64,000 bases of DNA. Source: Anaerolinea sp. (GTDB lineage Bacteria > Chloroflexota > Anaerolineae > Anaerolineales > Villigracilaceae). Position 1 is the first letter of the stretch, and each line of letters starts with the position of its first letter. Shown here piece after piece: positions 6,128-64,000 of the stretch. Position numbers and translations under genes: made by a program. The stretch is from contig JAIFNG010000065.1 in assembly GCA_020047815.1 (NCBI GenBank), forward strand, positions 1 through 64,000, read 5' to 3'. Below the pieces are notes generated by a model. It saw only the letters and a list, made by a program, of their open reading frames with translations, was not told where the DNA came from and did not search any database.

Positions 6128-7783
6128 TCATTCACATCCAAGAGTCATAATAATACGGGCATTGGGCAAAAAGAAAATGGTTTCATACCATGCAGGTTTT
6201 TCATTAACGATGCCGGGCTGAAAACTGCGCGACAGTCCTCCTACATAAATATGAGTCGCCTTTTTCAGGCAGAGCAGATCGTGCGTGCTCTGGGCAGCAA
6301 AGTCTGTCGAGTAAGGCAGAACAAGGATCAGACGCCCAGTTAAAGGTCTAACCCATATGCCTGCATCAGCCCCTGTTCCAAAGATGGGCAAGCCATAAGC
6401 ATCCAGACTCATATCTGCACCGGAGATGACTACCCGTGCGTTGGCGGGAAGGTGTTTATTCATCCAATCCAAAGCCACCGTATCGTCGCGGCTCACAAGT
6501 GTACAGCATGCGGACGGACTAAAGCTGTAAGCCGTCCATGCATGAAAAATGATGATGGTAACAAACAGTAGTAGGACAACTTTTGGCAGACGGATGGAAC
6601 CTAACCCACCAAGAAATGCCAGAGGCAGAAATAACGTCATTTCAACAAGCGGCCTGTCCAGCAGGGTCAACACAGAAGTAATGGGAATGAACATCCCCAC
6701 CAACATTAATAAAATTGCAAGGAGCGAGGCTGCGATCTGGCGGGGAAATGATTGGAAAACAGAAACAGCCAGAAGACCTGCCAGAAGCGTGACCCAAATT
6801 CCATAAGGCTCAAAAACCAGCCCAACAAACTGATTCTTATTAATCAGCACGATCGTCAATCCAAGTATTGCACCAGTCAAAGTAGCGAGGAGTACGTATT
6901 TCCTGCGTGGTACAGCAGTCAGTATCCATGCCATGCCAAAGATCGCCAACAAAATAACTGAGCGGCTGTGAATGAGTACCGCAGCAGCCATGCTCAATGC
7001 AACCAGCCAGCGTTTTTTTGTGAGTGCCGCGCCCAGCGTAAATTGAATCAAAAGCATGCTTAATAGCGCGGGATATTTTCCCCAGTTTACCGCATGAGCC
7101 GGCATGAACCAGCCAAATGCAACAAGCGTCACGCCAAACCATCCCGCCGCATTAGAGTGGGTGGTACGGTTGATAAAAAAATAGACCGGTAAAGGGATTG
7201 CCGCCAGTATGATCTGCCCAAATAACAGCATCACTTGTCCGGGATTTGCATTTGTGATCCATGTAAACGCTGCAATGATCACGTGATAACCGAGATGATA
7301 ATAGGGCAGCGATAACGCGATCTGATCCATGCGGATCAGCGACTGAACAAGCCGGTAGTGTTCGGCTGAGTCAAAATATGGGGGCAAAACCACATTAGCT
7401 AAAAACCCAAGGCGAATGAAAATTAAAAACAGGAAGATGAAAACAGGCAGGACAAAACCTGACGAGATATATTTCCACACAGTACGAAGGGCAAGTCCTG
7501 AACTAATGACGAATATGAGGAGCGAAATGGCTAAAATTAAACCTGCAGGAAGGAATAAACGTAAAGCCAGCAGGGACACAGAAAACAGGAGTACAGGCAA
7601 AGGAAATCCACCCAGTGCCAGCGCAGCCTGTTCTGAATTGGTAAATTGGGGACCCAGTATTTTTTTTAGACTTGCAAAAGTTAACAATGTCCCCCAACTC
7701 ACAAAAACCAGAATAGCAAGGATAATACCCAGGTTTTGAGCAAGGATGGATACACTATTAATGAACCAGTTACTGTTCATCAT
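6128..7783 (-). CDS. Multi-spanning membrane protein (DUF/glycosyltransferase-like)
   Basis: 551 aa with many hydrophobic segments; no confident family. Confidence 0.65.
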   Translation of the reverse strand: MMNSNWFINSVSILAQNLGIILAILVFVSWGTLLTFASLKKILGPQFTNSEQAALALGGFPLPVLLFSVSLLALRLFLPAGLILAISLLIFVISSGLALRTVWKYISSGFVLPVFIFLFLIFIRLGFLANVVLPPYFDSAEHYRLVQSLIRMDQIALSLPYYHLGYHVIIAAFTWITNANPGQVMLLFGQIILAAIPLPVYFFINRTTHSNAAGWFGVTLVAFGWFMPAHAVNWGKYPALLSMLLIQFTLGAALTKKRWLVALSMAAAVLIHSRSVILLAIFGMAWILTAVPRRKYVLLATLTGAILGLTIVLINKNQFVGLVFEPYGIWVTLLAGLLAVSVFQSFPRQIAASLLAILLMLVGMFIPITSVLTLLDRPLVEMTLFLPLAFLGGLGSIRLPKVVLLLFVTIIIFHAWTAYSFSPSACCTLVSRDDTVALDWMNKHLPANARVVISGADMSLDAYGLPIFGTGADAGIWVRPLTGRLILVLPYSTDFAAQSTHDLLCLKKATHIYVGGLSRSFQPGIVNEKPAWYETIFFLPNARIIMTLGCE

Positions 7784-7832
7784 GAATGAAAATCATGGGT
7801 TGGGATAGGCTGTTTCCGGTATGGGCACTGGC

Positions 7833-8378
7833 TCACTTTGAATTGAGGTGAATTGAGGGATCATTATCTCCCGGAACAGGCTCGGAAGTTGGAACTTTTT
7901 CCACACTGGCCGCATTTCCCGGCAGGCTGACTGGCGTTGCTAGAGCGATCGCCGAAACCAAAAACGTTCCGCGCGCGATCAACTTATCTTCGGCAATCGC
8001 ATATACTTCAATATCAATCGTTTCTCCAAGCGGTGTACGCACACCGGTGCAATATGCGCTGGTCGGCACAGACTCAACCACCTCGCACGCATATACACCC
8101 ACCGTTCCTCGATGATTCACCTTCACGTAGAACGGGGAATAATCTGGATTCGGTAATTGGAAATTGATCACCATACGGTTAACATTATTTGCGCCAAATG
8201 TGACAATGCATAGGCCGCTGGCATCCTCGTCACACAACGCCACCTCCGTCATCGGAGCACCCGCATCCTCACTTGACCGGCTCATGGTTTTGATAATTAA
8301 CGACAGGGCAGCAAACCAGAATACCAGAAAGATAAATCCGACAAATCCCAAAATAATAAATTTTTTTTTCTGCTTCAT
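7833..8378 (-). CDS. Hypothetical membrane-anchored protein
   Basis: MKQKKKFIILGFVGFIFLVFWFAAL anchor; RBS gaggt before the ATG at 8378. Confidence 0.6.
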   Translation of the reverse strand: MKQKKKFIILGFVGFIFLVFWFAALSLIIKTMSRSSEDAGAPMTEVALCDEDASGLCIVTFGANNVNRMVINFQLPNPDYSPFYVKVNHRGTVGVYACEVVESVPTSAYCTGVRTPLGETIDIEVYAIAEDKLIARGTFLVSAIALATPVSLPGNAASVEKVPTSEPVPGDNDPSIHLNSK

Positions 8379-8549
8379 ACAATACCTCAAAAATACTGCC
8401 GGGGGGTGCCCCGAACTTTTCAAAACTTATTTTTATCCTATGTGTTGATGATACATCAAAACAGGATAAATTTATTGCTCTCTTAAAATCACATAAGAGA
8501 TCAAATCCCTTGCTTGACTGTGCTTTGTTAAAAATGGTAATATGATTGC

Positions 8550-9839
8550 ATGTATCTTAAAGGAAGTAAATGGAGTATGAATCGCCGGCGGACGAGGCCC
8601 AACTGGTTTCGGATCATATTACTGTCACTGCTTGTGTTGGGTGGGGCGTACGTCAACCGGTTCATCCTTCCGAATCAACCCCAACTAGGAGTCCCCACTC
8701 CCACCGCAACCCGCTCGCCGGAGTCTTTTGTCACCGAAGCTGAGGAATATTTTACCCAGGGAAAACTCATTCCCGCAATCGAAGCCTACAAACAGGCGAT
8801 TGTCTCTTCCCCTGAAAACCCTGCCGTCTACGTGGCTCTGGCTCGGACGCAGGTTTTTGCAGGTCAATACAAGGAAGCGCAGGAAAGCGCTGAATCTGCC
8901 ATATTGCTCAACAACAACAACTCCAATGCGCATGCCGTGCGCGCCTGGGCGTTGGATTTTCAGGAGGAAACCCTTGAAGCCGAAGCCAGCATCAAACGGG
9001 CATTGGAACTGGACCCCAACAACGCGCTCGCTCATGCTTACTACTCAGAGATCCTGGTCGACTCTTTCTACAGCGGAACAGGTGCTGTCGGCGCCATCGA
9101 AAAGGCCATCGAGGAATCAAAGGTTGCCATTGCGCTCGCACCTGATGCATTGGAAACACACCGCGCACGCGGCTATGTGTATGAAGCCACAGGCAACTAC
9201 GAGGAAGCCATCCGTGAATATGAAGCTGCGATTGCAGTCAACACCAACATTGCAGACCTGCATCTTGCCCTCGGACGCAATTATCGTACGCTGGGCATTT
9301 ATGACAAAGCCGTTGAAGAATTCACGCGCGCCAATGCCCTCAACCCTGAAGACCCCACGCCCGACCTGTTCATCTCACGCACCTACGCCACCATCGGTGA
9401 ATACGCAAAAGCCATGCAGTATGCAGAATCCGCAAAGGACAACAACCCTGCCAGCGCCAGCCTGCGCGGCAACCTGGGTGTCATGTATTACCGCAACTCC
9501 TATTGGACTGAAGCCATCACCGAGCTTGGCTATGTGGTCAATGGTGGTGTGACGGATGATGGCGCCCAAATTGAGCCCATCAACCTGGCTCCTAACGATT
9601 CGCGCACTGCAGAATATTATGCCACGTACGGACTCGCACTTTCCCGCCTGAATCAATGCGGCAAAGCTTTGCAGGTTGCCCGTACCATCCTTGAGCGCAT
9701 TCCCGCCGATGAACTTGCCGTGGAAAATGCGAACGCGATCATCAGCCGTTGTCAGCAGAATCTTGATTCTCCCCCTGAAGCGACGGAGACACCGCTCGAG
9801 GCTGCTCCTGCTCCGACAGAGACACCCGCGGCCCCATGA
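8550..9839 (+). CDS. TPR-repeat membrane-anchored protein
   Basis: N-terminal TM, Thr/Pro linker, repeated AIEAYKQAIVSSPENPAVYVALARTQ-type units. Confidence 0.85.
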   Translation: MYLKGSKWSMNRRRTRPNWFRIILLSLLVLGGAYVNRFILPNQPQLGVPTPTATRSPESFVTEAEEYFTQGKLIPAIEAYKQAIVSSPENPAVYVALARTQVFAGQYKEAQESAESAILLNNNNSNAHAVRAWALDFQEETLEAEASIKRALELDPNNALAHAYYSEILVDSFYSGTGAVGAIEKAIEESKVAIALAPDALETHRARGYVYEATGNYEEAIREYEAAIAVNTNIADLHLALGRNYRTLGIYDKAVEEFTRANALNPEDPTPDLFISRTYATIGEYAKAMQYAESAKDNNPASASLRGNLGVMYYRNSYWTEAITELGYVVNGGVTDDGAQIEPINLAPNDSRTAEYYATYGLALSRLNQCGKALQVARTILERIPADELAVENANAIISRCQQNLDSPPEATETPLEAAPAPTETPAAP

Positions 9840-33924: not shown

Positions 33925-34899
33925 ATGCAAAGAGTCGAATCTGTCCACACATTTGACCAGATCAAGCTTCTGGCGGATTCTCGTCGTATGGAAATTTTGC
34001 GCCTGCTGATGGGGTCCCCCGCCACGCTCACCCAGTTGGCACAGATATTAAAACAATCTCCAGCCTGGGTGCGGCATCACATCCTGGCGCTTGAATCAGC
34101 GAACCTGATCGAGATCAGCGAAACTCGCAGGACAGGCAAGGTAACCGAGAAGTTCTATCGCGCAAAAGGAGGAGCCCTTCTTTTGCAGGAGATCGTTCTT
34201 CCAAAAAGCAAAAAACCTGCGGTCATCTTTTCCGGCAGTCATGACCTGGCACTCGAAGAGATTGCCGAACATCTTAGCAAACATGTCACCCTGTTAAACC
34301 TGCCGGTCGGCTCACTGGATGGATTGATAAATTTACGGCAGGGGCTGTGTCAAATTTCGGGCGCTCATATTTTGGATGAAACTGGCGAATACAACACACC
34401 CACGGTTCGCCACCTCTTCCCTGACCGCAAGGTGGAAATGGTCACACTCGCCTATCGCACACAGGGACTGATCCTCGCTGCGGGCAACCCCAAAAGCATC
34501 AGGAATATCCCTGATATTGTGCGCGAAGATGTAAAGTTCATTAATCGCAATGCAGGTTCAGGAACGAGACTGTGGTTTGATGCGGAACTCAAAAAACAAA
34601 AAATCGATTCGGCACACATCAACGGCTATGACAGTTCCGTAAAAACACACAGCGAAGCCGCCGGGTTGATCTCTCAGAAAAAAGCAGACGTATCCATCGG
34701 TTTGCAAGCCGCAGCACACCAGTACGGACTGGACTTCATTCCTCTATTTGAAGAACGCTACGACCTTGTTCTACCGAGGGAAAACGAAAAAGTACTTTCT
34801 CCCCTGCTCGATTATCTGCAAACGATCAACTTTCGAACCGGACTTAATTCATTGACAGGTTACAACGCATCCCACAGCGGCGAACAGGTTTTAGTGTAG
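33925..34899 (+). CDS. ArsR/ModE-like HTH regulator fused to a PBP-like (molybdate/tungstate-type) ligand domain
   Basis: N-terminal LADSRRMEILRLLMGSPATLTQLAQILKQSPAWVRHHILALESANLIEI wHTH; C-terminal RNAGSGTRLWFDAEL...HSEAAGLISQKKADVSIGLQAAA typical of COG1910-type domains. Confidence 0.88.
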   Translation: MQRVESVHTFDQIKLLADSRRMEILRLLMGSPATLTQLAQILKQSPAWVRHHILALESANLIEISETRRTGKVTEKFYRAKGGALLLQEIVLPKSKKPAVIFSGSHDLALEEIAEHLSKHVTLLNLPVGSLDGLINLRQGLCQISGAHILDETGEYNTPTVRHLFPDRKVEMVTLAYRTQGLILAAGNPKSIRNIPDIVREDVKFINRNAGSGTRLWFDAELKKQKIDSAHINGYDSSVKTHSEAAGLISQKKADVSIGLQAAAHQYGLDFIPLFEERYDLVLPRENEKVLSPLLDYLQTINFRTGLNSLTGYNASHSGEQVLV

Positions 34900-34914: not shown

Positions 34915-35361
34915 ATGAAAAAACTCCTTACCATTCTTCTCTCTCTGATCCTTCTGCTCCCTGCCTGCTCGCCCGCAGCCACACTAACTGCGGTCGACCC
35001 TATTCAAACTCAGAAGACCGAAGCCACATCCACCCCCGCCCTCTTCCAGATTATCAGACCTGATGGCACGACATTTGGCGTGACTCTCGAAGCACTCAAA
35101 GCCCTGCCGCTTGCCACTGTCACTGCCGAGGGTAAGGTGGAGGAGGGACCCTTCTTGAGTGATGTACTGTCTCTGGCTGGAATCACCAGATTCACCGAAG
35201 TCTCGCTGACCGGCAGTTCCAATCCTGCCACCTTAACCTTTGAACAGGTGAATGAAAACACAATCCTGGATTTCAATAATCATGGCACACTAAAACTTTC
35301 AACCCTTTATATACCGAAGGCAAACTGGACAAAGGATGTGGCAAAGATCGTGGTGAAATAG
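34915..35361 (+). CDS. Small lipoprotein with one molybdopterin-oxidoreductase-like domain
   Basis: Lipobox LLLPACS; GTLKLSTLYIPKANWTKDVAKIVVK resembles the C-termini at 38327 and in the TupA fusion. Confidence 0.7.
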   Translation: MKKLLTILLSLILLLPACSPAATLTAVDPIQTQKTEATSTPALFQIIRPDGTTFGVTLEALKALPLATVTAEGKVEEGPFLSDVLSLAGITRFTEVSLTGSSNPATLTFEQVNENTILDFNNHGTLKLSTLYIPKANWTKDVAKIVVK

Positions 35362-35522: not shown

Positions 35523-36245
35523 ATGCACTACCTGCTTGGAATTGACGACACAGACAATTTGGAATCGCGCGGGACGGGACATCGTGTCCGCCAGCTGGCG
35601 GGCTGGCTTGCAGAGAATGGCCTGGCTGAACCTCTGGGAATTACCCGGCATCAGCTTTTGGTTAGCCCGCAAATCCCTTACACCTCGCACAATAGTTCAG
35701 CCTGTTTATCCGTCAAAAGCAGGAACTCAATTGACCTTTGGGAGGCTGCGCGCGAATTCCTTTTACGTGAAAGCGCGCCTGGTTCAGATGCCGGTCTGAC
35801 TCTTGCAAAATGGAACTCGATCAACAAGTGCACTGTTTCGTTTGCCCAGCGGGCGAAGATCGTGGTGTTGACCATGTCCGAGGCTGAGCAAACCGCTTCC
35901 CATTCGGGAATCCGCTGCGAGGGGTTAACCGGTACACACGGCGGAATCATTGGCGCATTATCGGCGATCGGATTGCATCGCGCCGGCAATGATGGACGCT
36001 TTTTGTGGCTGCCCGGCTTGCGTGAATTACAGGGAAAATATCCGGCTGGCGAAGTCTGCAAACTGGGGCATGTTGATCGTATCTGTTCTCTGAATAATTG
36101 GGATGTTCATTCGAAATCAATTGTGAATATCGGTGAATGGGCGCGCCCCATCCTGCGCGACGGAAAATCAATACTGTACGTGGAGAAAAAGAATGATGAA
36201 TGGCATATTATCCCCAGGGAATACATCAAGAAGTTATCCAACTGA
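35523..36245 (+). CDS. TiaS-like (GIDDTD motif) protein, short bacterial form
   Basis: MHYLLGIDDTDNLESRGTGHRVRQLAGWL, GTHGGIIGALSAIGLHRAGNDG; resembles the catalytic part of archaeal TiaS. Confidence 0.75.
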   Translation: MHYLLGIDDTDNLESRGTGHRVRQLAGWLAENGLAEPLGITRHQLLVSPQIPYTSHNSSACLSVKSRNSIDLWEAAREFLLRESAPGSDAGLTLAKWNSINKCTVSFAQRAKIVVLTMSEAEQTASHSGIRCEGLTGTHGGIIGALSAIGLHRAGNDGRFLWLPGLRELQGKYPAGEVCKLGHVDRICSLNNWDVHSKSIVNIGEWARPILRDGKSILYVEKKNDEWHIIPREYIKKLSN

Positions 36246-36771
36246 TTGGTCACTCGCATGGATTGAAGCGTTTCTGTTAATAGGCGGTGGTGTGATGGCG
36301 GTCATCCTGCACCGCTCCACCGATCTTTCGCTTGGGCTGCCCGGTCATCACGGCATCGAGTGGATGGCAATCATGATCCTCGGGCGCGCGTCTTCGCGGT
36401 ATCGCGGAGCCGGCACACTTACCAGTATCGGCGCATCGTTTACATCGTTGATACCAGGCCTGCAGAGCGGCAATTCCTTCGCATGGTTGTTCTATCTCCT
36501 GCCCGGACTGGTAATGGATTTCTCCATTTATTACTTTGCCGGGAATGCAAACAAAATCTGGTTTCTGGCATTGCTCGGTGGATTGGCCCACACTACCAAA
36601 CCGCTGGGACAATTGACCGTGAACTTAATCACTGGTTGGCCCTTTGGTTCGTTCCGTTACGGGGTGGCATACCCCTTCGCCAGCCATATGCTCTACGGGA
36701 CAATCGGCGGACTGTTGGGCGTATTGATCCTTTTTGGCATCCACTGCATATCCTCCAGGAATGAAAAGTAG
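36193..36771 (+). CDS. Multi-spanning membrane protein, possible ECF S-component-like
   Basis: About 190 aa, 5-6 hydrophobic spans, start MMNGILSP after gtggag; overlaps the end of the TiaS-like gene. Confidence 0.55.
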   Translation: MMNGILSPGNTSRSYPTDWSLAWIEAFLLIGGGVMAVILHRSTDLSLGLPGHHGIEWMAIMILGRASSRYRGAGTLTSIGASFTSLIPGLQSGNSFAWLFYLLPGLVMDFSIYYFAGNANKIWFLALLGGLAHTTKPLGQLTVNLITGWPFGSFRYGVAYPFASHMLYGTIGGLLGVLILFGIHCISSRNEK

Positions 36772-36857: not shown

Positions 36858-38327
36858 ATGAAACTGTATTTACGTCTGATCCTGAGCGGTGCACTTTTTC
36901 TTGCGCTGGCATTGACCTTTGCCGCTTGCTCGGGGGGAACCCAGGTCGAATCGTCACCTGTTGCAGAAGCTACGGAAGCGGTGGTTGTTGAAGCAAGCCC
37001 TGTCGCTACTGAACCAGCCATCCCTGTATTGGAAATCGCCGGGGAAGCCGAAGTCAAGTCTCTGAGCATGGAAGAATTAAAGACATTGCCCACAACAGAG
37101 GGCTACGCGGGCATTAAGAGCAGTACAGGCAAGATCACACCACCTGTCATGATGAAGGGCGTGGCGCTGAAAGACCTTGCTGAACTGATCGGCGGGATGG
37201 ATGAAACAAATGGCTTCAATGTGGTCGCCGAAGACGGTTACAGCATCACCTACTCGTATGATCAGCTTCAAAATGGTTCATTCATTGCCTACGATCCCGC
37301 CACCGGAGCAGAGCTTAAAAATCCTGTGGAATTAACCGCCATCCTAGCCTACGAAGCAGACGGCAAACCATTTGACCCCAAACAGGATGGTGCCCTGCGC
37401 CTGGCAATTGTCAGCGCGGATTTGACCCAGGTCACAGACGGCCACTGGGCTGTGAAATGGGTCAATAAACTCGAAGTCAAGAACCTGGGAGCAGAATGGG
37501 CATTACAACTGGACGGTGCGATTTCCAAGCCAACAGACCGCGTCAGCATCGAATCCTGCGGCGCACCGCAATGTCATGGAGCCTCCTGGGTGGACGATAA
37601 AGGACAGGAGTGGGCTGGCGTACCTTTGTATTATTTCGTCGGCTCGGTGGATGATGAGATCGAACATGAAGGCCCTGCGTTCAATCGTACGCTTGCCGAT
37701 GCAGGATATAGCGTGGACGTGATCGCCGCCGACGGTTACACCGTCACTTTCGATGCGGCACGTGTCCAATACAACAAGGACATCATCGTGGCGTACAAGG
37801 TCAACGAGAACCAGCTGCCTGATGATTTCTTCCCTCTGCGCCTGGTCGGTGACGACCTCGAGAAAAGCGAGATGGCTGGCATGATCGCCCAAATCAAAGT
37901 CGGCCTCGAGCCGCTTCCTGTTATCGAACCCGCAGCAACAGAAGCACCAGCCGCCCCTGCGGCTGCAGCAACGGGAAGTCTGGTTATCACAGGTCTGGTG
38001 AATCAGGAAATGGGGTTCATGGAAGCCGACCTGCGCGCGCTGGAAGTCTTGACGATCAATGCCGAACACCCAAAAAATGGGAAACAGGATTTTGACGGCG
38101 TCTCCCTGAACGCCCTGCTTGATATGGCAGGCGTGAAAGACGGCGCGAAGACACTATTCGTCACTGCAGCAGACGGATACACGTCGGAAATAAGTTTGAG
38201 CGATGTACGCGCCTGCACAGACTGCCTGCTTGGCTTCACCAACACGGCGGAACAGTTCAAGCTGGTCATGCCAAACCTGCCCAGCAATACCTGGGCAAAA
38301 GATGTGATCAAGATCGAAATGAAATAG
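36858..38327 (+). CDS. Lipoprotein with about three molybdopterin-oxidoreductase-like domains
   Basis: Lipobox TFAACSG; internal repeats (DLAELIGG...VVAEDGYSITYS; TLADAGYSVDVIAADGYTVTFD; ALLDMAGVKDGAKTLFVTAADGYTSEISLSDVRACTDC). Confidence 0.8.
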   Translation: MKLYLRLILSGALFLALALTFAACSGGTQVESSPVAEATEAVVVEASPVATEPAIPVLEIAGEAEVKSLSMEELKTLPTTEGYAGIKSSTGKITPPVMMKGVALKDLAELIGGMDETNGFNVVAEDGYSITYSYDQLQNGSFIAYDPATGAELKNPVELTAILAYEADGKPFDPKQDGALRLAIVSADLTQVTDGHWAVKWVNKLEVKNLGAEWALQLDGAISKPTDRVSIESCGAPQCHGASWVDDKGQEWAGVPLYYFVGSVDDEIEHEGPAFNRTLADAGYSVDVIAADGYTVTFDAARVQYNKDIIVAYKVNENQLPDDFFPLRLVGDDLEKSEMAGMIAQIKVGLEPLPVIEPAATEAPAAPAAAATGSLVITGLVNQEMGFMEADLRALEVLTINAEHPKNGKQDFDGVSLNALLDMAGVKDGAKTLFVTAADGYTSEISLSDVRACTDCLLGFTNTAEQFKLVMPNLPSNTWAKDVIKIEMK

Positions 38328-38340
38328 GTCATCCATGCAG

Positions 38341-38403
38341 CGTCCCGCAGGTTTCTTTCCAAAACGAAATCCGGTATTCCAATCTGCGGGACGTTCTTAT
38401 TTT
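38341..38403 (+). terminator. Intercistronic hairpin upstream of wtpA-like gene
   Basis: CGTCCCGCAG ... CTGCGGGACG then TTCTTATTTT. Confidence 0.6.
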
Positions 38404-39486
38404 ATGATGCGAAAATCTTTGGCAATTATCCTGCTTTTATCCCTGCTCGGGCTGTGCCTCGGTTCCTGCAGCGGTCAGGGGGCTGGGGCAGAGAAAACTC
38501 CCCTGGTGGTATTCGCCGCCGGGAGTTTGATCATCCCCTTCGACCATATTGAAAAAGCTTTTGAAGAAAAATACCCAAATATTGACGTGCAATCCGAATA
38601 CCACGGAAGCATTCAGGTCATCCGCCATGCAACAGAGCTGCACAAACCAATTGACGTGGTGACGACAGCAGATGCCGCATTGATCCCAATGCTGATGTAT
38701 GCGACCAACCTGCCAGAGACCGAACAACCGTATGCAAACTGGCATATCCGCTTTGCAAGCAATCATCTCGCACTGGCATACCAGACTGAAAGCAAATACG
38801 CCAACGAGATCAACGCGGAGAATTGGACGGAGATCATCAGCCGCCCCGACGTGAAGATCGGCATTGCCGATCCGCGTTTTGATGCTTCGGGCTACCGCGC
38901 TTTAATGGCTTTTGCACTGGCTGAAATTGCAAATGAAAATTATGGGTTGTTCAGCCCAATGTTTGACAGGCAATTCACATTCCCTGTCACGATCTTTCGC
39001 GGCGACGAATTGACAACCATCACCGTGCCTGAAATTCTGGAAACAAAATCCGGGTCACATATCGTTATCCGCGGTGCGAGCATCCAGTTGATCGCATTGC
39101 TTGAGTCAGGTGATCTGGATTATGCCTTTGAATATGAAAGCGTCATTCAACAGCATGATCTCAAGATGGTCAGCCTGCCCGCTGAAGTCAATTTGGGCGA
39201 AGATGAAAATAAGGAACTTTACCAGCAGGTTCAGGTGAATTTGGATTTCCAGCGTTTCGCCTCAATCAAACCGCAATTCCGCGGAGAGCGTATCGGTTAT
39301 GGCATAACCATCCCGGCGAGCGCGCTGCACCCAGATCAAGCCGCGCAATTTATTGCCTTTTTACTCAGCGCCGAAGGAAGGAACCTGATGGAAGCGGATC
39401 ATCATCCCATGTTTGAAACGTTCATTGCAGATGGCCACAAAAACCTGCCATCGGGTCTACAGGCGATCACAACACCGATGGAATAG
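38404..39486 (+). CDS. wtpA: WtpA/ModA-type tungstate/molybdate substrate-binding lipoprotein
   Basis: LVVFAAGSLIIPFDHIEKAFEEKYPNIDVQSEYHGS...DVVTTADAALIP; start MMRKSL chosen downstream of the hairpin. Confidence 0.9.
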   Translation: MMRKSLAIILLLSLLGLCLGSCSGQGAGAEKTPLVVFAAGSLIIPFDHIEKAFEEKYPNIDVQSEYHGSIQVIRHATELHKPIDVVTTADAALIPMLMYATNLPETEQPYANWHIRFASNHLALAYQTESKYANEINAENWTEIISRPDVKIGIADPRFDASGYRALMAFALAEIANENYGLFSPMFDRQFTFPVTIFRGDELTTITVPEILETKSGSHIVIRGASIQLIALLESGDLDYAFEYESVIQQHDLKMVSLPAEVNLGEDENKELYQQVQVNLDFQRFASIKPQFRGERIGYGITIPASALHPDQAAQFIAFLLSAEGRNLMEADHHPMFETFIADGHKNLPSGLQAITTPME

Positions 39487-39488
39487 CG

Positions 39489-40274
39489 TTGAAAAAAAGA
39501 AACCTGCTCTTTAACATCATTTTTTCCACACTGGGCGGGTTGCTGCTATTGTTTATCATTTTGCCGCTGGCCAGCATCCTGCTCGGTACTACACCGCATA
39601 CTTTATGGCTCGCACTGGTTGACACGGAAGTACTGCGCTCCATCAGCCTGACTTTCAGCGCGGCAGCGATTGCCACCTTGCTGGCTATTGTCACGGGCGT
39701 GCCACTGGCTTTTTTGCTTGCACGGAGAAAATTTAGCGGAAAACGACTGGTGGAAGCACTGGTTAATTTACCGATCGTGATTCCGCACACCGCCGCGGGG
39801 GTTGCGCTCCTGCTGGTCTTTGGCAGGCGTGGCTTGCTTGGTCAATGGCTGACACCCTTGGGCGTAACCTTTACTGATAACTTTACAGGTATCGTGGTTG
39901 CCATGTTATTTGTCAGCCTGCCGTTTCTGGTAAACCTCAGCCGAGAATCATTTGCGCTTGTTGATGAAGAACTGGAACTCGTCGCCCTGATTGACGGTGC
40001 ATCCCCATGGCAGGCGTTCTGGTATGTTTCACTCCCGCAGGCATGGCGCGGGATAATGGCAGGCGCATTGATGATGTGGGCTCGCGGCATTAGTGAATTC
40101 GGCGCAGTGGTCATTCTCGCCTATCACCCAAAGATCGTACCGGTACTGGTCTTTGAACGCTTTGAGGGATTTGGACTCGTTGCCGCCCAGCCCGTCGCCG
40201 CATTGCTTGTACTCGTGGCACTGGCAACATTTATATTTTTGCGATTATCTCTCCTGAGCGAGAGTAACGAATGA
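39489..40274 (+). CDS. wtpB: WtpB/ModB-type ABC permease
   Basis: LVNLPIVIPHTAAGVALLLVFG; EELELVALIDGASPWQAFWYVSLPQAWRGIMAGALMMWARGISEFGA EAA loop. Confidence 0.93.
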   Translation: MKKRNLLFNIIFSTLGGLLLLFIILPLASILLGTTPHTLWLALVDTEVLRSISLTFSAAAIATLLAIVTGVPLAFLLARRKFSGKRLVEALVNLPIVIPHTAAGVALLLVFGRRGLLGQWLTPLGVTFTDNFTGIVVAMLFVSLPFLVNLSRESFALVDEELELVALIDGASPWQAFWYVSLPQAWRGIMAGALMMWARGISEFGAVVILAYHPKIVPVLVFERFEGFGLVAAQPVAALLVLVALATFIFLRLSLLSESNE

Positions 40275-40601: not shown

Positions 40602-41909
40602 ATGTCCCGTACCATTAAATTTGTTTTACTGATGGGGTTGACCCTCTCGCTGGTGCTGTCTGCCTGCGGAACCCCAGCCCCCACAGCGGCTCCCGTTGTC
40701 GAAGCAACCGAAGTTTCGATTGCGACAGAAGCACCTGCCGCTACCGAAGCCCCGTCTGCCGAACCGATCCTCACCATCAGCGGCGCTGTTGAGCAGGAAC
40801 TGGCTCTCTCCGAAGCCGACCTGCGCGGCATGGAAGTTATTAAACTGAATGCTGAGCATCCCAAAAAGGGTCCCACCGACTACGAAGGTGTGCGTTTGAG
40901 TGAAGTGCTTGCCAAGGCTGGCATTCAGGCTGGAGCCAATGCGCTCATCTTAACCGCCAGTGACGGCTATGAATCCGAAGTCGCGTATGCAGATGTGGAA
41001 GCCTGCGCTGATTGTCTGGTCGCCTTCGACGGCAGCGACCTCATCATGGTCATGCCTGGCTTGTCCAGCAAAGCCTGGGCAAAGATGGTCGTCAAGATCG
41101 AAGTGAAGGCCGCAGAAGCCGTAACTCCTCCCGCTAACCCGAATATCATTCTTGCCACTACCACCTCCACCCAGGATTCTGGCTTGCTTGATATCCTCCT
41201 TCCCATGTTCGAGGAACAGACTGGCTATGTAGTGCAGACCATCGCGGTCGGCACCGGCGAAGCACTCAAGATGGGAGAGGAAGGCAATGCCGATGTATTG
41301 CTTGTCCACGCGCCCTCCTCCGAAGTCACCTTCATGGACAACGGGTTTGGCAAGGACCGTATGTTGGTCATGCACAACGACTTTATTATCGTCGGACCTG
41401 CGGATGATCCCGCTGCCATCAAAGACCTTGCAACTAAGGACGCCTTTGTGGCCATCTACAATGCGGCTGTACCCTTCGTCTCACGCGGCGACGACTCAGG
41501 CACTCATAAAAAGGAAATCAGTCTCTGGGCAAAAGCTGAATTGGACCCCATGACCGGTAAACCCGCATGGTTCATCGAGACCGGTCAAGGCATGGGAGCA
41601 TCGCTAACTGTCGCATCCGAGAAAGGCGCATATATTCTCACTGACCGCGCCACCTACCTCGCCAACAAGGAAAACCTGCAGTTGGATATCTTGCTTGAAG
41701 GTGACAGTGCCCTGCTGAACGTCTATCACGTTATGACTGTCAATCCCGAAAAATGGGATGCGGTCAACTACGATGGCGCAATGGCGTTCTCTAACTTCAT
41801 GATCGATCCCGCCACTCAGGCGGTGATTGGCGAATTCGGTATGGCGGAATTTGGCATGCCGCTCTTCTTCCCCGATGCAGATAAGACAGATGCAGATTTT
41901 GGTCTGTAG
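40602..41909 (+). CDS. tupA: Lipoprotein: molybdopterin-oxidoreductase-like domain fused to TupA-type tungstate-binding domain
   Basis: N-terminal VIKLNAEHPKKGPTDYEGVRLSEVLAKAG...VEACADC; C-terminal IILATTTSTQDSGLLDILLPMFEEQTGYVV, SRGDDSGTHKKE, GQGMGASL. Confidence 0.92.
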   Translation: MSRTIKFVLLMGLTLSLVLSACGTPAPTAAPVVEATEVSIATEAPAATEAPSAEPILTISGAVEQELALSEADLRGMEVIKLNAEHPKKGPTDYEGVRLSEVLAKAGIQAGANALILTASDGYESEVAYADVEACADCLVAFDGSDLIMVMPGLSSKAWAKMVVKIEVKAAEAVTPPANPNIILATTTSTQDSGLLDILLPMFEEQTGYVVQTIAVGTGEALKMGEEGNADVLLVHAPSSEVTFMDNGFGKDRMLVMHNDFIIVGPADDPAAIKDLATKDAFVAIYNAAVPFVSRGDDSGTHKKEISLWAKAELDPMTGKPAWFIETGQGMGASLTVASEKGAYILTDRATYLANKENLQLDILLEGDSALLNVYHVMTVNPEKWDAVNYDGAMAFSNFMIDPATQAVIGEFGMAEFGMPLFFPDADKTDADFGL

Positions 41910-41989: not shown

Positions 41990-42634
41990 ATGACCGATAT
42001 TCTTGAAATCACCGTTCTATCCCTGCAAGTCTCGACCATCGCAACCCTGATCAGCCTGTTGATCGGGCTGCCATTCGGGACCTGGCTTGCACTCGGCAAT
42101 TTTCGCGGGCGTTCATTCATCCTGAGCATTGTCAACACAGGCATGGCCCTGCCGCCCGTGGTGGTCGGTCTGGTGGTGGCAATGACCCTCTGGCGCAGTG
42201 GTCCGCTCGGCGGGTTAAAACTGATCTACACCCCCTGGGCGATCATCATTGCGCAGACAGTCATCTCTGCACCAGTGGTAACAGGGTTGACATCCGCTGC
42301 ACTGGCGGCACTGGATCCACGTCTGCAGCAGCAACTGCTCGGGTTGGGAGCATCCCGCTTGCAGATGATATGGATGCTCTGGAGGGAGGCGCGCCTGCCG
42401 CTGCTCGCCGCACTAATGGCGGGTTTTGGTTCGGTCATCTCAGAGGTTGGCGCATCAATGATGGTTGGCGGCAACATCCGCGGACAGACCCGCGTGCTGA
42501 CCACTGCCATTGTGCTGGAAACCAGCAAGGGAGAATTCGAGCGTGCCCTGGCTCTTTCCGCCCTGCTGTTGATCATCACTTACCTCATCAACCTGGCATT
42601 GACCTGGATACAGCAAAAGGGACAAAGAAGATGA
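41990..42634 (+). CDS. tupB: TupB-type ABC permease
   Basis: NTGMALPPVVVGLVVAMTLWRSGPLGGL; GASRLQMIWMLWREARLPLLAALMAGFGSVISEVGASMMVGGNI. Confidence 0.94.
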   Translation: MTDILEITVLSLQVSTIATLISLLIGLPFGTWLALGNFRGRSFILSIVNTGMALPPVVVGLVVAMTLWRSGPLGGLKLIYTPWAIIIAQTVISAPVVTGLTSAALAALDPRLQQQLLGLGASRLQMIWMLWREARLPLLAALMAGFGSVISEVGASMMVGGNIRGQTRVLTTAIVLETSKGEFERALALSALLLIITYLINLALTWIQQKGQRR

Positions 42635-43350
42635 ACGAGCTGATCTCAATCCGAAATTTGCTTATCAGGCGTAATCAGCGCGATGTGCTGGGTGTGGACT
42701 CGCTGGACATCCAACGCGGCGAAACGCTGGCAGTGGTCGGTCCCAATGGGGCGGGTAAGAGCACGCTTTTATTGGCGCTGGCACATTTGCTCAAACCAGC
42801 CAGTGGCGAAGTAAAATATGGCGGAAGGCATATCCACGAATGGAATGACTTGGAATACCGCAGAAAGATCGCCTTCGTTTTTCAGGATCCGCTGTTGATG
42901 GATTTATCTGTGGAGGATAATGTTGCCCTCGGCTTAAAGTTCCGCGGTGTGGAGAAAAAAGAATCACACCTTCGCGCCGAAAAGTGGATGAAAGCCATGG
43001 GTGTGGATTCGCTTGCGAAGCGGCGGGCAGGTCAACTTTCAGGCGGTGAGGCACAAAGGGTCAGCCTGGCACGGGCTTTTGTCCTTGATCCAGAACTGCT
43101 TTTGATGGATGAACCGTTCTCGGCGGTCGACCCGCAGACACGTGGGCAGTTAATGAATGATCTATCCGAACTGCTGGCTCAGGAACACCGCACGACGATC
43201 TTTGTCACACACAACTTGAAGGAAGCCGCGCAAATGGGCAGCCGCATGGCAGTAGTTATCAGCGGCAGGGTAAAACAGGTAGGCACACCGCAACAGATCA
43301 AGGAAAATCCAGTTGATAACAGTGTGAGGGATTTTTTAAGGGAGTTGTAA
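42631..43350 (+). CDS. tupC: TupC-type ABC ATPase
   Basis: Start MNELISIRNL after aaagaag; Walker A GPNGAGKST, LSGGEAQRVSLARAF, LLMDEPFSAVD; the track ORF starting at 42370 is over-extended. Confidence 0.95.
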   Translation: MNELISIRNLLIRRNQRDVLGVDSLDIQRGETLAVVGPNGAGKSTLLLALAHLLKPASGEVKYGGRHIHEWNDLEYRRKIAFVFQDPLLMDLSVEDNVALGLKFRGVEKKESHLRAEKWMKAMGVDSLAKRRAGQLSGGEAQRVSLARAFVLDPELLLMDEPFSAVDPQTRGQLMNDLSELLAQEHRTTIFVTHNLKEAAQMGSRMAVVISGRVKQVGTPQQIKENPVDNSVRDFLREL

Positions 43351-63180: not shown

Positions 63181-63337
63181 TGGCAATGGACATCGGCGGA
63201 AAATTATATTTCCGAAAAGAAACTGATAAAGTTTTTTAACATAAGCGTACTTGTTTGCATAATTGATATGGGGTATTATCATTTGGTCAGGGGCATACAC
63301 TGCCCCATAAAACTTGTATCTCTTAAGAGGAGAAGAT

Positions 63338-64000
63338 ATGAATAAACGTTTCGTGTTCGTCCTATTGACCCTCGTCGTAGCCGCTTCGCTGGTATTGTCG
63401 GCTTGCGGCGCCCCCGCGACTGAAGCTCCTGTCGCTACAGAAGCCCCTGTTGTTGCAACCGAAGCCCCCACCGAAGCGCCCGCTCCCACTGAGCCGCCCA
63501 TGCCCGCAGTCGGTTCCCCTGAACATCCGATCAAAGTATTGTTTGTTCCCTCCGTGGATGCAAACATCATCACCACCGGCGGTGAAGTGATGGCTGCCGC
63601 TTTAAGCGAAGCCACCGGCTTGACCTTCGAAGTTACCGTCCCCACCTCATACGCCGCCACGATCGAAGAAATGTGCGCCTCCCCGGCGGACACCATGGCT
63701 TTCATTCCAGGTCTTGGTTATGCCATCGCCAGCCAGTTGTGCGGCGTGGATGTTGCTTTCAAAGCCGTCCGCTATGGCTACCCCGTCTACTGGGCTGAAT
63801 ACATCGTCGCCCGCGACAGTAAATACCAAACCCTTGCCGACCTCGAAGGCGCAACCTGGGGCTTTGGAGACCAGGGTTCAACCTCCGGCTACATGGTTCC
63901 CGCAGTTGAATTCGCTGCCGCCGGCATCACCCCCGGCGAACAGGTTCAGACCGGCGGTCACAACCAGACCGTTACCGCTGTGTACAATGGCGAAGTCGAA
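63338..64000 (+). CDS. PhnD-like phosphate/phosphonate ABC substrate-binding lipoprotein, 3'-truncated by window end
   Basis: Not in the ORF track. MNKRFVFVLLTLVVAASLVLSACGAP lipobox, then IKVLFVPSVDANIITTGGEVMAAALSEATGLTFEVTVPTSYAATIEEMCASPADTMAFIPGLGYAIA; RBS taagaggagaagat. Confidence 0.9.
   Translation, partial: MNKRFVFVLLTLVVAASLVLSACGAPATEAPVATEAPVVATEAPTEAPAPTEPPMPAVGSPEHPIKVLFVPSVDANIITTGGEVMAAALSEATGLTFEVTVPTSYAATIEEMCASPADTMAFIPGLGYAIASQLCGVDVAFKAVRYGYPVYWAEYIVARDSKYQTLADLEGATWGFGDQGSTSGYMVPAVEFAAAGITPGEQVQTGGHNQTVTAVYNGEVE

Follow-up and report, generated by a model that had tools for sequence, protein, structure and literature searches.

What does a protein built around the catalytic domain of the tRNA-modifying enzyme TiaS do in a bacterial locus for tungstate uptake? 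This question is raised by a gene at positions 35523–36245 (+) of a 64,000-nucleotide stretch of DNA from an Anaerolinea sp. (hereafter the window). The gene is a single open frame of 240 codons plus a stop with an ATG start, and the strand opposite to it is full of stops. Its product, called T below, is a TiaS TCKD-like protein that contains both LLGIDDTDNLESRGTGHRV and GTHGGIIGALSAIG, the two motifs on which the original prediction based a match to the TiaS superfamily. Profile and fold searches demonstrate that this match is real and that it covers only the catalytic domain, over approximately 153 aligned residues.

The relationship of T to TiaS has been probed using the single sequence, the family, and the predicted structure. 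Searched alone, T matches no Pfam family and finds nothing in the PDB. Its matches to NCBIfam fall far below the curated cut-offs, with 29.9 bits (2.9e-7) against a cut-off of 255.8 for TIGR03280 (methanogenesis marker 11), which is also a partial match, and 20.5 bits (1.5e-4) against a cut-off of 600 for NF040849 (TiaS), placing T outside both families. A collection of species-level genomes contained 182 stretches encoding relatives of T, 80 of which were kept; the aligned relatives share 37–89% identity with the window protein. TIGR03280 is matched by all 66 relatives examined, TiaS by 58 of the 66 (best 1.7e-15), and Pfam TiaS_TCKD by 29 (best 1.3e-6). The profile of these 66 members did match the PDB, retrieving crystal structures of TiaS with E-values of 3.3e-9 to 2.5e-8 over residues 1–152. 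Similarly, a fold search with the AlphaFold model of T (pLDDT 93.6) recovered TiaS structures with E-values from 2e-10 to 2e-7 and no other structure below E 0.001, the matches extending over approximately 153–159 columns at 2.2–2.5 Å for the better ones. As the profile, family-wide and fold matches all point to TiaS, the homology of T to the TiaS kinase domain (TCKD) is secure and more than chance.

The conserved residues of T indicate what has been kept from TiaS. Conservation among the 66 members is 90% or higher at I7, D8, D9, T10, D11, and T18, while R42 and N57 are invariant. In the gap-free alignment of the N-termini, Thr18 of T pairs with Thr18 of Archaeoglobus fulgidus TiaS, the residue behind the name Thr18-Cyt34 kinase domain. 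H43, Q44, D157, G158, and R159 are also invariant in the 66 members, and the first two are not common to TiaS in the profile alignment. The invariance of these T-specific residues suggests that T may have a substrate pocket of its own. Binding of ATP by T would be expected from its homology to TiaS, at approximately 24% identity.

The tRNA-binding part of TiaS, in contrast, is absent from T. Homology stops near residue 152, no OB-fold or zinc ribbon follows, and the protein ends at 240 amino acids, its last 85 residues forming a small α/β part that is confidently predicted by AlphaFold. The suspicion that a protein of this length would be too short for the full tRNA-binding C-terminal domains was therefore correct, as none of those modules is present. 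The accompanying suggestion to look for tilS was also fruitful; the gene is found in the same genome with 183.9 bits, above the cut-off, and T is not a replacement for TilS. Although T retains the IDDTD motif and Thr18, the absence of the OB-fold/zinc-ribbon part and the presence of tilS indicate that T is not TiaS and is a TCKD-only protein of a separate, un-annotated family.

The genes surrounding T, all on the plus strand, agree with the proposed tungstate locus. The first (33925–34899) encodes an ArsR-type helix-turn-helix with a PBP-like domain, PF12727 (Pfam PBP_like 2.4e-60, HTH_5 2.6e-9), and is probably a Mo/W-responsive regulator; most loci from Chloroflexota, and a few from proteobacteria, have an ArsR-PBP gene 5′ of T. 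Next is the gene for a small lipoprotein of 148 amino acids (34915–35361), assigned to the SUOX-like group (SUOXlp) through sequence cluster 10 and without a Pfam match when searched by itself. On the 3′ side of T, the gene for the membrane protein S (36196–36771, described below) is followed by that for a 489-residue lipoprotein with three Oxidored_molyb (SUOX-like) stretches (36858–38327; PF00174 7.6e-17). The tungstate importer genes come after this and encode the tungstate/molybdate-binding protein WtpA (38335–39486; TIGR03730, 288 bits against a cut-off of 242.75), a WtpB-like permease (39489–40274; NF040839 2.6e-84), a SUOX-like domain fused to a TupA-like tungstate-binding domain (40602–41909; PF00174 3.2e-7, PF12849 2.9e-48, NF041772 TupA 6.6e-69), a TupB-like permease (41990–42634; NF038017 2.7e-78, TupB 2.8e-44), and a TupC-like ABC ATPase of a tungstate importer (42619–43350; PF00005 3.3e-36, with importer ATPase models including WtpC at 1.2e-54). 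The one locus encodes three SUOX/Oxidored_molyb-type proteins located outside the cytoplasm (34915–35361, 36858–38327, and 40602–41909), one of them fused to TupA, and these three are possibly pterin- or cofactor-binding proteins. An additional open reading frame at the edge of the window (63314–64000) groups with the TupA/SUOX-lipoprotein cluster.

Co-occurrence of T with its neighboring lipoproteins was suggested as a check on the original prediction. In 15 loci, the gene immediately 5′ of T encodes a cluster 10 lipoprotein, and in one operon from Bacillota, relatives of SUOXlp separate the genes for EcfT and S. The closest partner of T, overlooked in the original prediction, is nevertheless the overlapping downstream gene for S and not the lipoproteins. 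The start codon of this gene lies inside T, giving an overlap of approximately 50 nucleotides (36196–36245 in the window) in different frames. An in-frame ATG is found at this place in 61 of 65 adjacent pairs from several phyla, and 30 of these 61 overlapping pairs have no later ATG up to 70 nucleotides past T. The protein S is an integral membrane protein of 191 amino acids that matches no S-component or other family in Pfam and NCBIfam, and its sequence retrieves only chance antibody matches from the PDB. The AlphaFold model of S (pLDDT 91.2) is most similar to the ECF S component 5edl (Foldseek probability 1.00, TM 0.63, E 0.029), followed by ThiT 4tkr (probability 0.93), with Foldseek E-values that are weak overall (0.03–0.28). 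Despite these modest E-values, S is a probable ECF S component, as genome linkage to ECF genes agrees with the predicted fold. Relatives of S adjoin EcfA, EcfA′, and EcfT in loci L075, L133, L137, L140, L142, and L145 (Sporomusa, Desulfobacterota, and Bacillota), and in Sporomusa ovata S is located with all three, opposite T. EcfT is CbiQ (3.7e-41). In the window locus, no EcfA, EcfA′, or EcfT gene adjoins S.

The family is found in at least six bacterial phyla (Chloroflexota, Bacteroidota, Pseudomonadota, Desulfobacterota, Bacillota, and Acidobacteriota) as well as on haloarchaeal plasmids, with T present in 19 of 300 genomes of the phylum of Sporomusa (here Bacillota) and 19 of 247 of the phylum of Geobacter (Desulfobacterota). 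In a tree of 106 rows, copies of T cluster by phylum; the window copy falls with L001 and L002 in Chloroflexota, while the Bacillota/Desulfobacterota copies form two other large groups. This grouping by phylum points to T as a widespread and probably old family in which some transfer or paralogy has occurred. Individual copies deserve separate mention. Nitrobacter winogradskyi (L067) carries a second copy that is split into two open reading frames (7203–7975 and 8545–9282) beside an intact T and looks like a decayed duplicate. The copy in L144 (NZ_CP097987.1) is found on a 3.8 kb plasmid record of Pimelobacter simplex, an unusual place that is possibly an assembly by-product. The copy in L034, a MAG titled Klebsiella pneumoniae, is nearest to that of an unclassified gammaproteobacterium, and the name is probably wrong.

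Synteny with Mo/W genes, another expectation of the original prediction, is firm and extends to other phyla and to Moco/Tuco riboswitches. Of the three results that would have refuted that prediction, none was obtained. In Chloroflexota, the gene order is ArsR-PBP regulator, SUOX-like lipoprotein, T, S, a further SUOX lipoprotein, WtpA/WtpB, and TupA/TupB/ATPase. The order in Bacteroidota is (ModE)-T-S-lipoprotein-TonB receptor, in some cases with WtpA, permease, and ATPase, although many Bacteroidales loci have S, the lipoprotein, and the TonB receptor only. Pseudomonadota have (ModE)-T-S-TonB receptor-(TupA). A ModE domain adjoining T is recognized at 5.9e-22. Desulfobacterota contain a TonB receptor with ECF genes or with FecCD-ATPase-MolA-like-T-MoSto, or contain T-MoSto. 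Bacillota contain either T-ECF or an Ig-like secreted protein followed by FecCD-ATPase-MolA-like-T and a small protein with a CYNCRYRRW motif. On a haloarchaeal (Natribaculum) plasmid, T (34% identity) is divergent from a MolA-like gene. The MolA-like binding protein of T loci matches HI_1472 (MolA), a known molybdate/tungstate binder (PMC4031551), at 1.1e-23, a match that ranks behind the one of the same protein to 4ovk, at 3.9e-31. The MoSto (molybdenum storage protein) adjoining T matches the beta subunit at 7.8e-66; homologues share T loci at L001:15734-16777, L002:15300-16208, L040:10760-11593, and L116:2540-3370 (Chloroflexota, Acidobacteriota, and Desulfobacterota), L001 and L002 carrying the two closest relatives of the window T. 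The CYNCRYRRW protein (66–105 amino acids) is encoded directly 3′ of T in Bacillota and Desulfobacterota (L123:6862-7074, L142:6845-7054, and L074:10705-10980) and matches no family in Pfam and NCBIfam.

T usually adjoins one importer, and TonB receptors, Wtp/Tup tungstate transporters, ModE-type regulators, or MoSto frequently accompany it. Within 5 kb of T, an S/ECF gene is found in 72 of 112 loci and MolA/FecCD in 15, while both are found in none, as expected if the two are interchangeable importers of one ligand that replace each other. A Mo/W marker is located within 5 kb of T in 62 of the 112 loci and is absent in 50, in part because the contigs fetched were short.

Further support for a tungsten connection comes from the riboswitches. 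In L123 and L129, the operon of T and the MolA-like importer begins with the Moco RNA (RF01055), which scores 70.2 and 62.7 bits, respectively, both above the gathering score. The Bacillota genome G321, which contains locus L145, has two copies above the gathering score (62.3 and 64.4 bits), one located 5′ of T-EcfA-EcfA′-EcfT and the other 5′ of SUOX lipoprotein-S-Ig protein; the RNA in this genome at L145:6016-6135 is of the tungsten type and stands directly before the SUOX lipoprotein-S unit. The third consensus hairpin, taken as P3, is missing from all four RNAs, which come from three Bacillota genomes. RNAs without P3 are proposed by Regulski et al. 2008 (PMC2408646) to sense the tungsten cofactor (Tuco). 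The RF01055 RNAs upstream consequently place the T and S transcripts in a tungsten-cofactor regulon, independent of protein annotation. RF01055 was not found in the 64-kb window or in the seven Bacteroidota, Pseudomonadota, and Desulfobacterota T loci scanned. The puzzling "sulphite oxidase" genes behind tungsten-type riboswitches of Syntrophomonas wolfei, which are exceptions in that study, may by analogy encode SUOX-fold ECF binding proteins.

The distribution of the tungsten enzyme AOR was also compared with that of T. All 19 Bacillota genomes with T have an AOR-family gene, compared to 157 of 281 without T (Fisher 2.6e-5, kinship ignored). Across mixed phyla, AOR is found in 40 of 49 genomes with T, and the nine without it include several Gamma- and Alphaproteobacteria. 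AOR was therefore rejected as a universal partner of T, and the T system is not linked to any single tungsten enzyme.

Due to its linkage to importers and gene switches across phyla, T is likely part of the Mo/W uptake machinery and not a tRNA enzyme. The reading we prefer, with a probability of about one half, is that T is a partner, on the cytosolic side, of a module for tungsten(/molybdenum) uptake and depends on ATP to phosphorylate or activate the ligand that is imported. This proposal starts from the directly established features of T, namely its homology, fold, and catalytic motif, its loss of the tRNA-binding modules, and its linkage to Mo/W importers, regulators, and riboswitches; from these we infer that T uses ATP, that it transfers a phosphoryl group, and what kind of ligand it acts on. 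First, in Gram-negative organisms, a TonB receptor would bring the ligand into the periplasm. Next, the ECF transporter (with S overlapping T) or a MolA-like ABC importer of the FecCD/BtuCD type would transport it into the cytosol. There, T would hold ATP through the conserved aspartates of the IDDTD motif and phosphorylate a metal-borne organic ligand at a carbonyl or hydroxyl, or activate that group. Finally, this step would either trap the ligand or free the metal for the assembly of MPT/AOR-type cofactors or for a Mo/W storage protein. The favoured ligand is a W/Mo chelate, as would fit TonB together with siderophore-type or ECF import, the swap with MolA-like importers, and MoSto as a sink. 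More tentatively, bacteria and haloarchaea may possess a dedicated pathway for the uptake and assimilation of a W (or Mo) chelate or a cofactor-derived pterin, in which a TonB receptor and either S components of a new ECF family or a MolA-like importer might work with a TiaS-derived small-molecule kinase, all under the control of tungsten-cofactor riboswitches.

Of the other explanations, the salvage of a pterin or cofactor, the kind of substrate that the original prediction considered plausible, survives best, although it is unlikely. Here the ECF/TonB/type II importer would take up a dephosphorylated molybdopterin-derived or related pterin, the SUOX-fold lipoproteins would present the pterin, and T would re-phosphorylate it or ligate it into the MPT/Tuco pathway. 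An ECF system that has an S component of the vitamin type and is controlled by a cofactor riboswitch is reminiscent of other salvage systems, and SUOX-fold lipoproteins flank T. The SUOX-fold protein PruR binds pterins and shares the Oxidored_molyb fold of the T-locus lipoproteins (PMC13259868), a hint that does not decide the question; in addition, the sole PDB match of the lipoprotein at 36858–38327 is 7rkb, "Pterin Binding Protein" (E 0.006). T itself is weakly similar to the pterin kinase HPPK (probability 0.97–0.98, E >0.01), but the HPPK and PII likenesses are common to ferredoxin-like folds and consequently were not used as proof. The gene content of the genomes argues against salvage. 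In tests for the presence of MoaA, MoaC, and MoaE, MoaC was found in 67 of 67 other genomes with T (one set) and in 17 of the 19 Bacillota, and a moaA-like match was found in 50 of 50, indicating that organisms with T usually make their own molybdopterin; obligate cofactor salvage was rejected on this basis. In G321, a riboswitch-T-ECF operon, MoeA, and AOR are present while MoaA, MoaC, and MoaE were not found. This assembly is fragmented, however, and MoaD- and MoeB-like genes are kept, so the gaps may reflect assembly losses and no claim of salvage rests there. Furthermore, T is present in just 2 of 26 Bacillota with AOR and without MoaC, about the base rate.

It is doubtful that T handles the oxyanion or metal itself through an ATP-dependent tungstate/molybdate step, such as delivery to MPT insertion or the loading of MoSto. 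Such a step would be consistent with the Wtp/Tup oxyanion importers in the window T operon and with the MoSto genes that neighbor T in Desulfobacterota, in one genome of Acidobacteriota, and in the Chloroflexota closest to the window. However, MoSto is missing from most T loci, and T is accompanied more constantly by an S component, a TonB receptor, or a MolA-like importer than by Wtp/Tup. The chemistry of TiaS, moreover, is directed at a nucleobase and not at an oxyanion.

A role as a sensor or regulator that has kept the fold and lost catalysis is improbable; the ModE and ArsR-PBP regulators adjoining T would fit this role, but many loci already have a dedicated regulator and others have a riboswitch, and different phyla have retained the catalytic IDDTD/Thr18 motif. 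A tRNA/RNA-modifying function as a bacterial TiaS, to which the TCKD homology would otherwise point, is highly improbable and was rejected on the architecture of T, the NF040849 score, the presence of tilS, and linkage to transport and not translation genes.

The preferred reading, in which T acts on an imported tungsten or molybdenum ligand, is of interest since the ways in which bacteria scavenge W and Mo beyond ABC transporters for the free oxyanion are poorly known. The T gene is the marker of a widespread module in which import through TonB and an ECF (or siderophore-type) system would be coupled to a kinase-like enzyme in the cytosol, under the control of the tungsten cofactor, with the TiaS catalytic domain recruited outside tRNA modification. 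If the dedicated pathway outlined above exists, the TiaS fold would have in T its first known small-molecule enzyme, and the transporter would be the first ECF system for Mo/W. The open-access literature contains no description of the T family, its S component, or an ECF system for Mo/W, although subscription journals may differ. The domain and each type of transporter are known; it is their combination and physiological setting that are new. The gene set provides a starting point in the search for a metallophore or a cofactor-salvage route, and Sporomusa ovata, Methylophaga, and Nitrobacter winogradskyi are available as cultured hosts.

Comparison with known systems places T and its partners as follows. 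T shares with TiaS (PDB 3amt, 3amu, 3au7, 4rvz, 5xob, and 3u02) the N-terminal TCKD of approximately 153 residues, including the IDDTD motif, the position of Thr18, and a conserved G-IIGALAAIG segment. In contrast to TiaS, T has only approximately 24% identity to that enzyme, lacks the OB-fold/zinc-ribbon part, coexists with tilS, and is linked to Mo/W uptake. Methanogenesis marker 11 (TIGR03280) has the same domain as T and is the best NCBIfam match of the window protein; T differs in that only profile positions 136–284 are matched, the N-terminal half is missing, and the family is found beyond methanogens. S has the predicted fold of ECF S components such as YkoE and ThiT, and its relatives adjoin EcfA/EcfA′/EcfT, but S belongs to no named family and is linked to Mo/W and not to a known vitamin. 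MolBCA (HI1470-1472), a low-affinity type II molybdate/tungstate importer, has in common with T loci a FecCD permease, an ATPase, and an HI_1472-like binding protein; no T gene was observed here with the Haemophilus influenzae system, and the T-locus protein is closer to the uncharacterised binding protein 4ovk. Finally, the Moco/Tuco riboswitch regulon (RF01055), whose members named in the available portion of PMC2408646 include neither an ECF transporter nor a TiaS-like gene, heads T operons in the Bacillota relatives.
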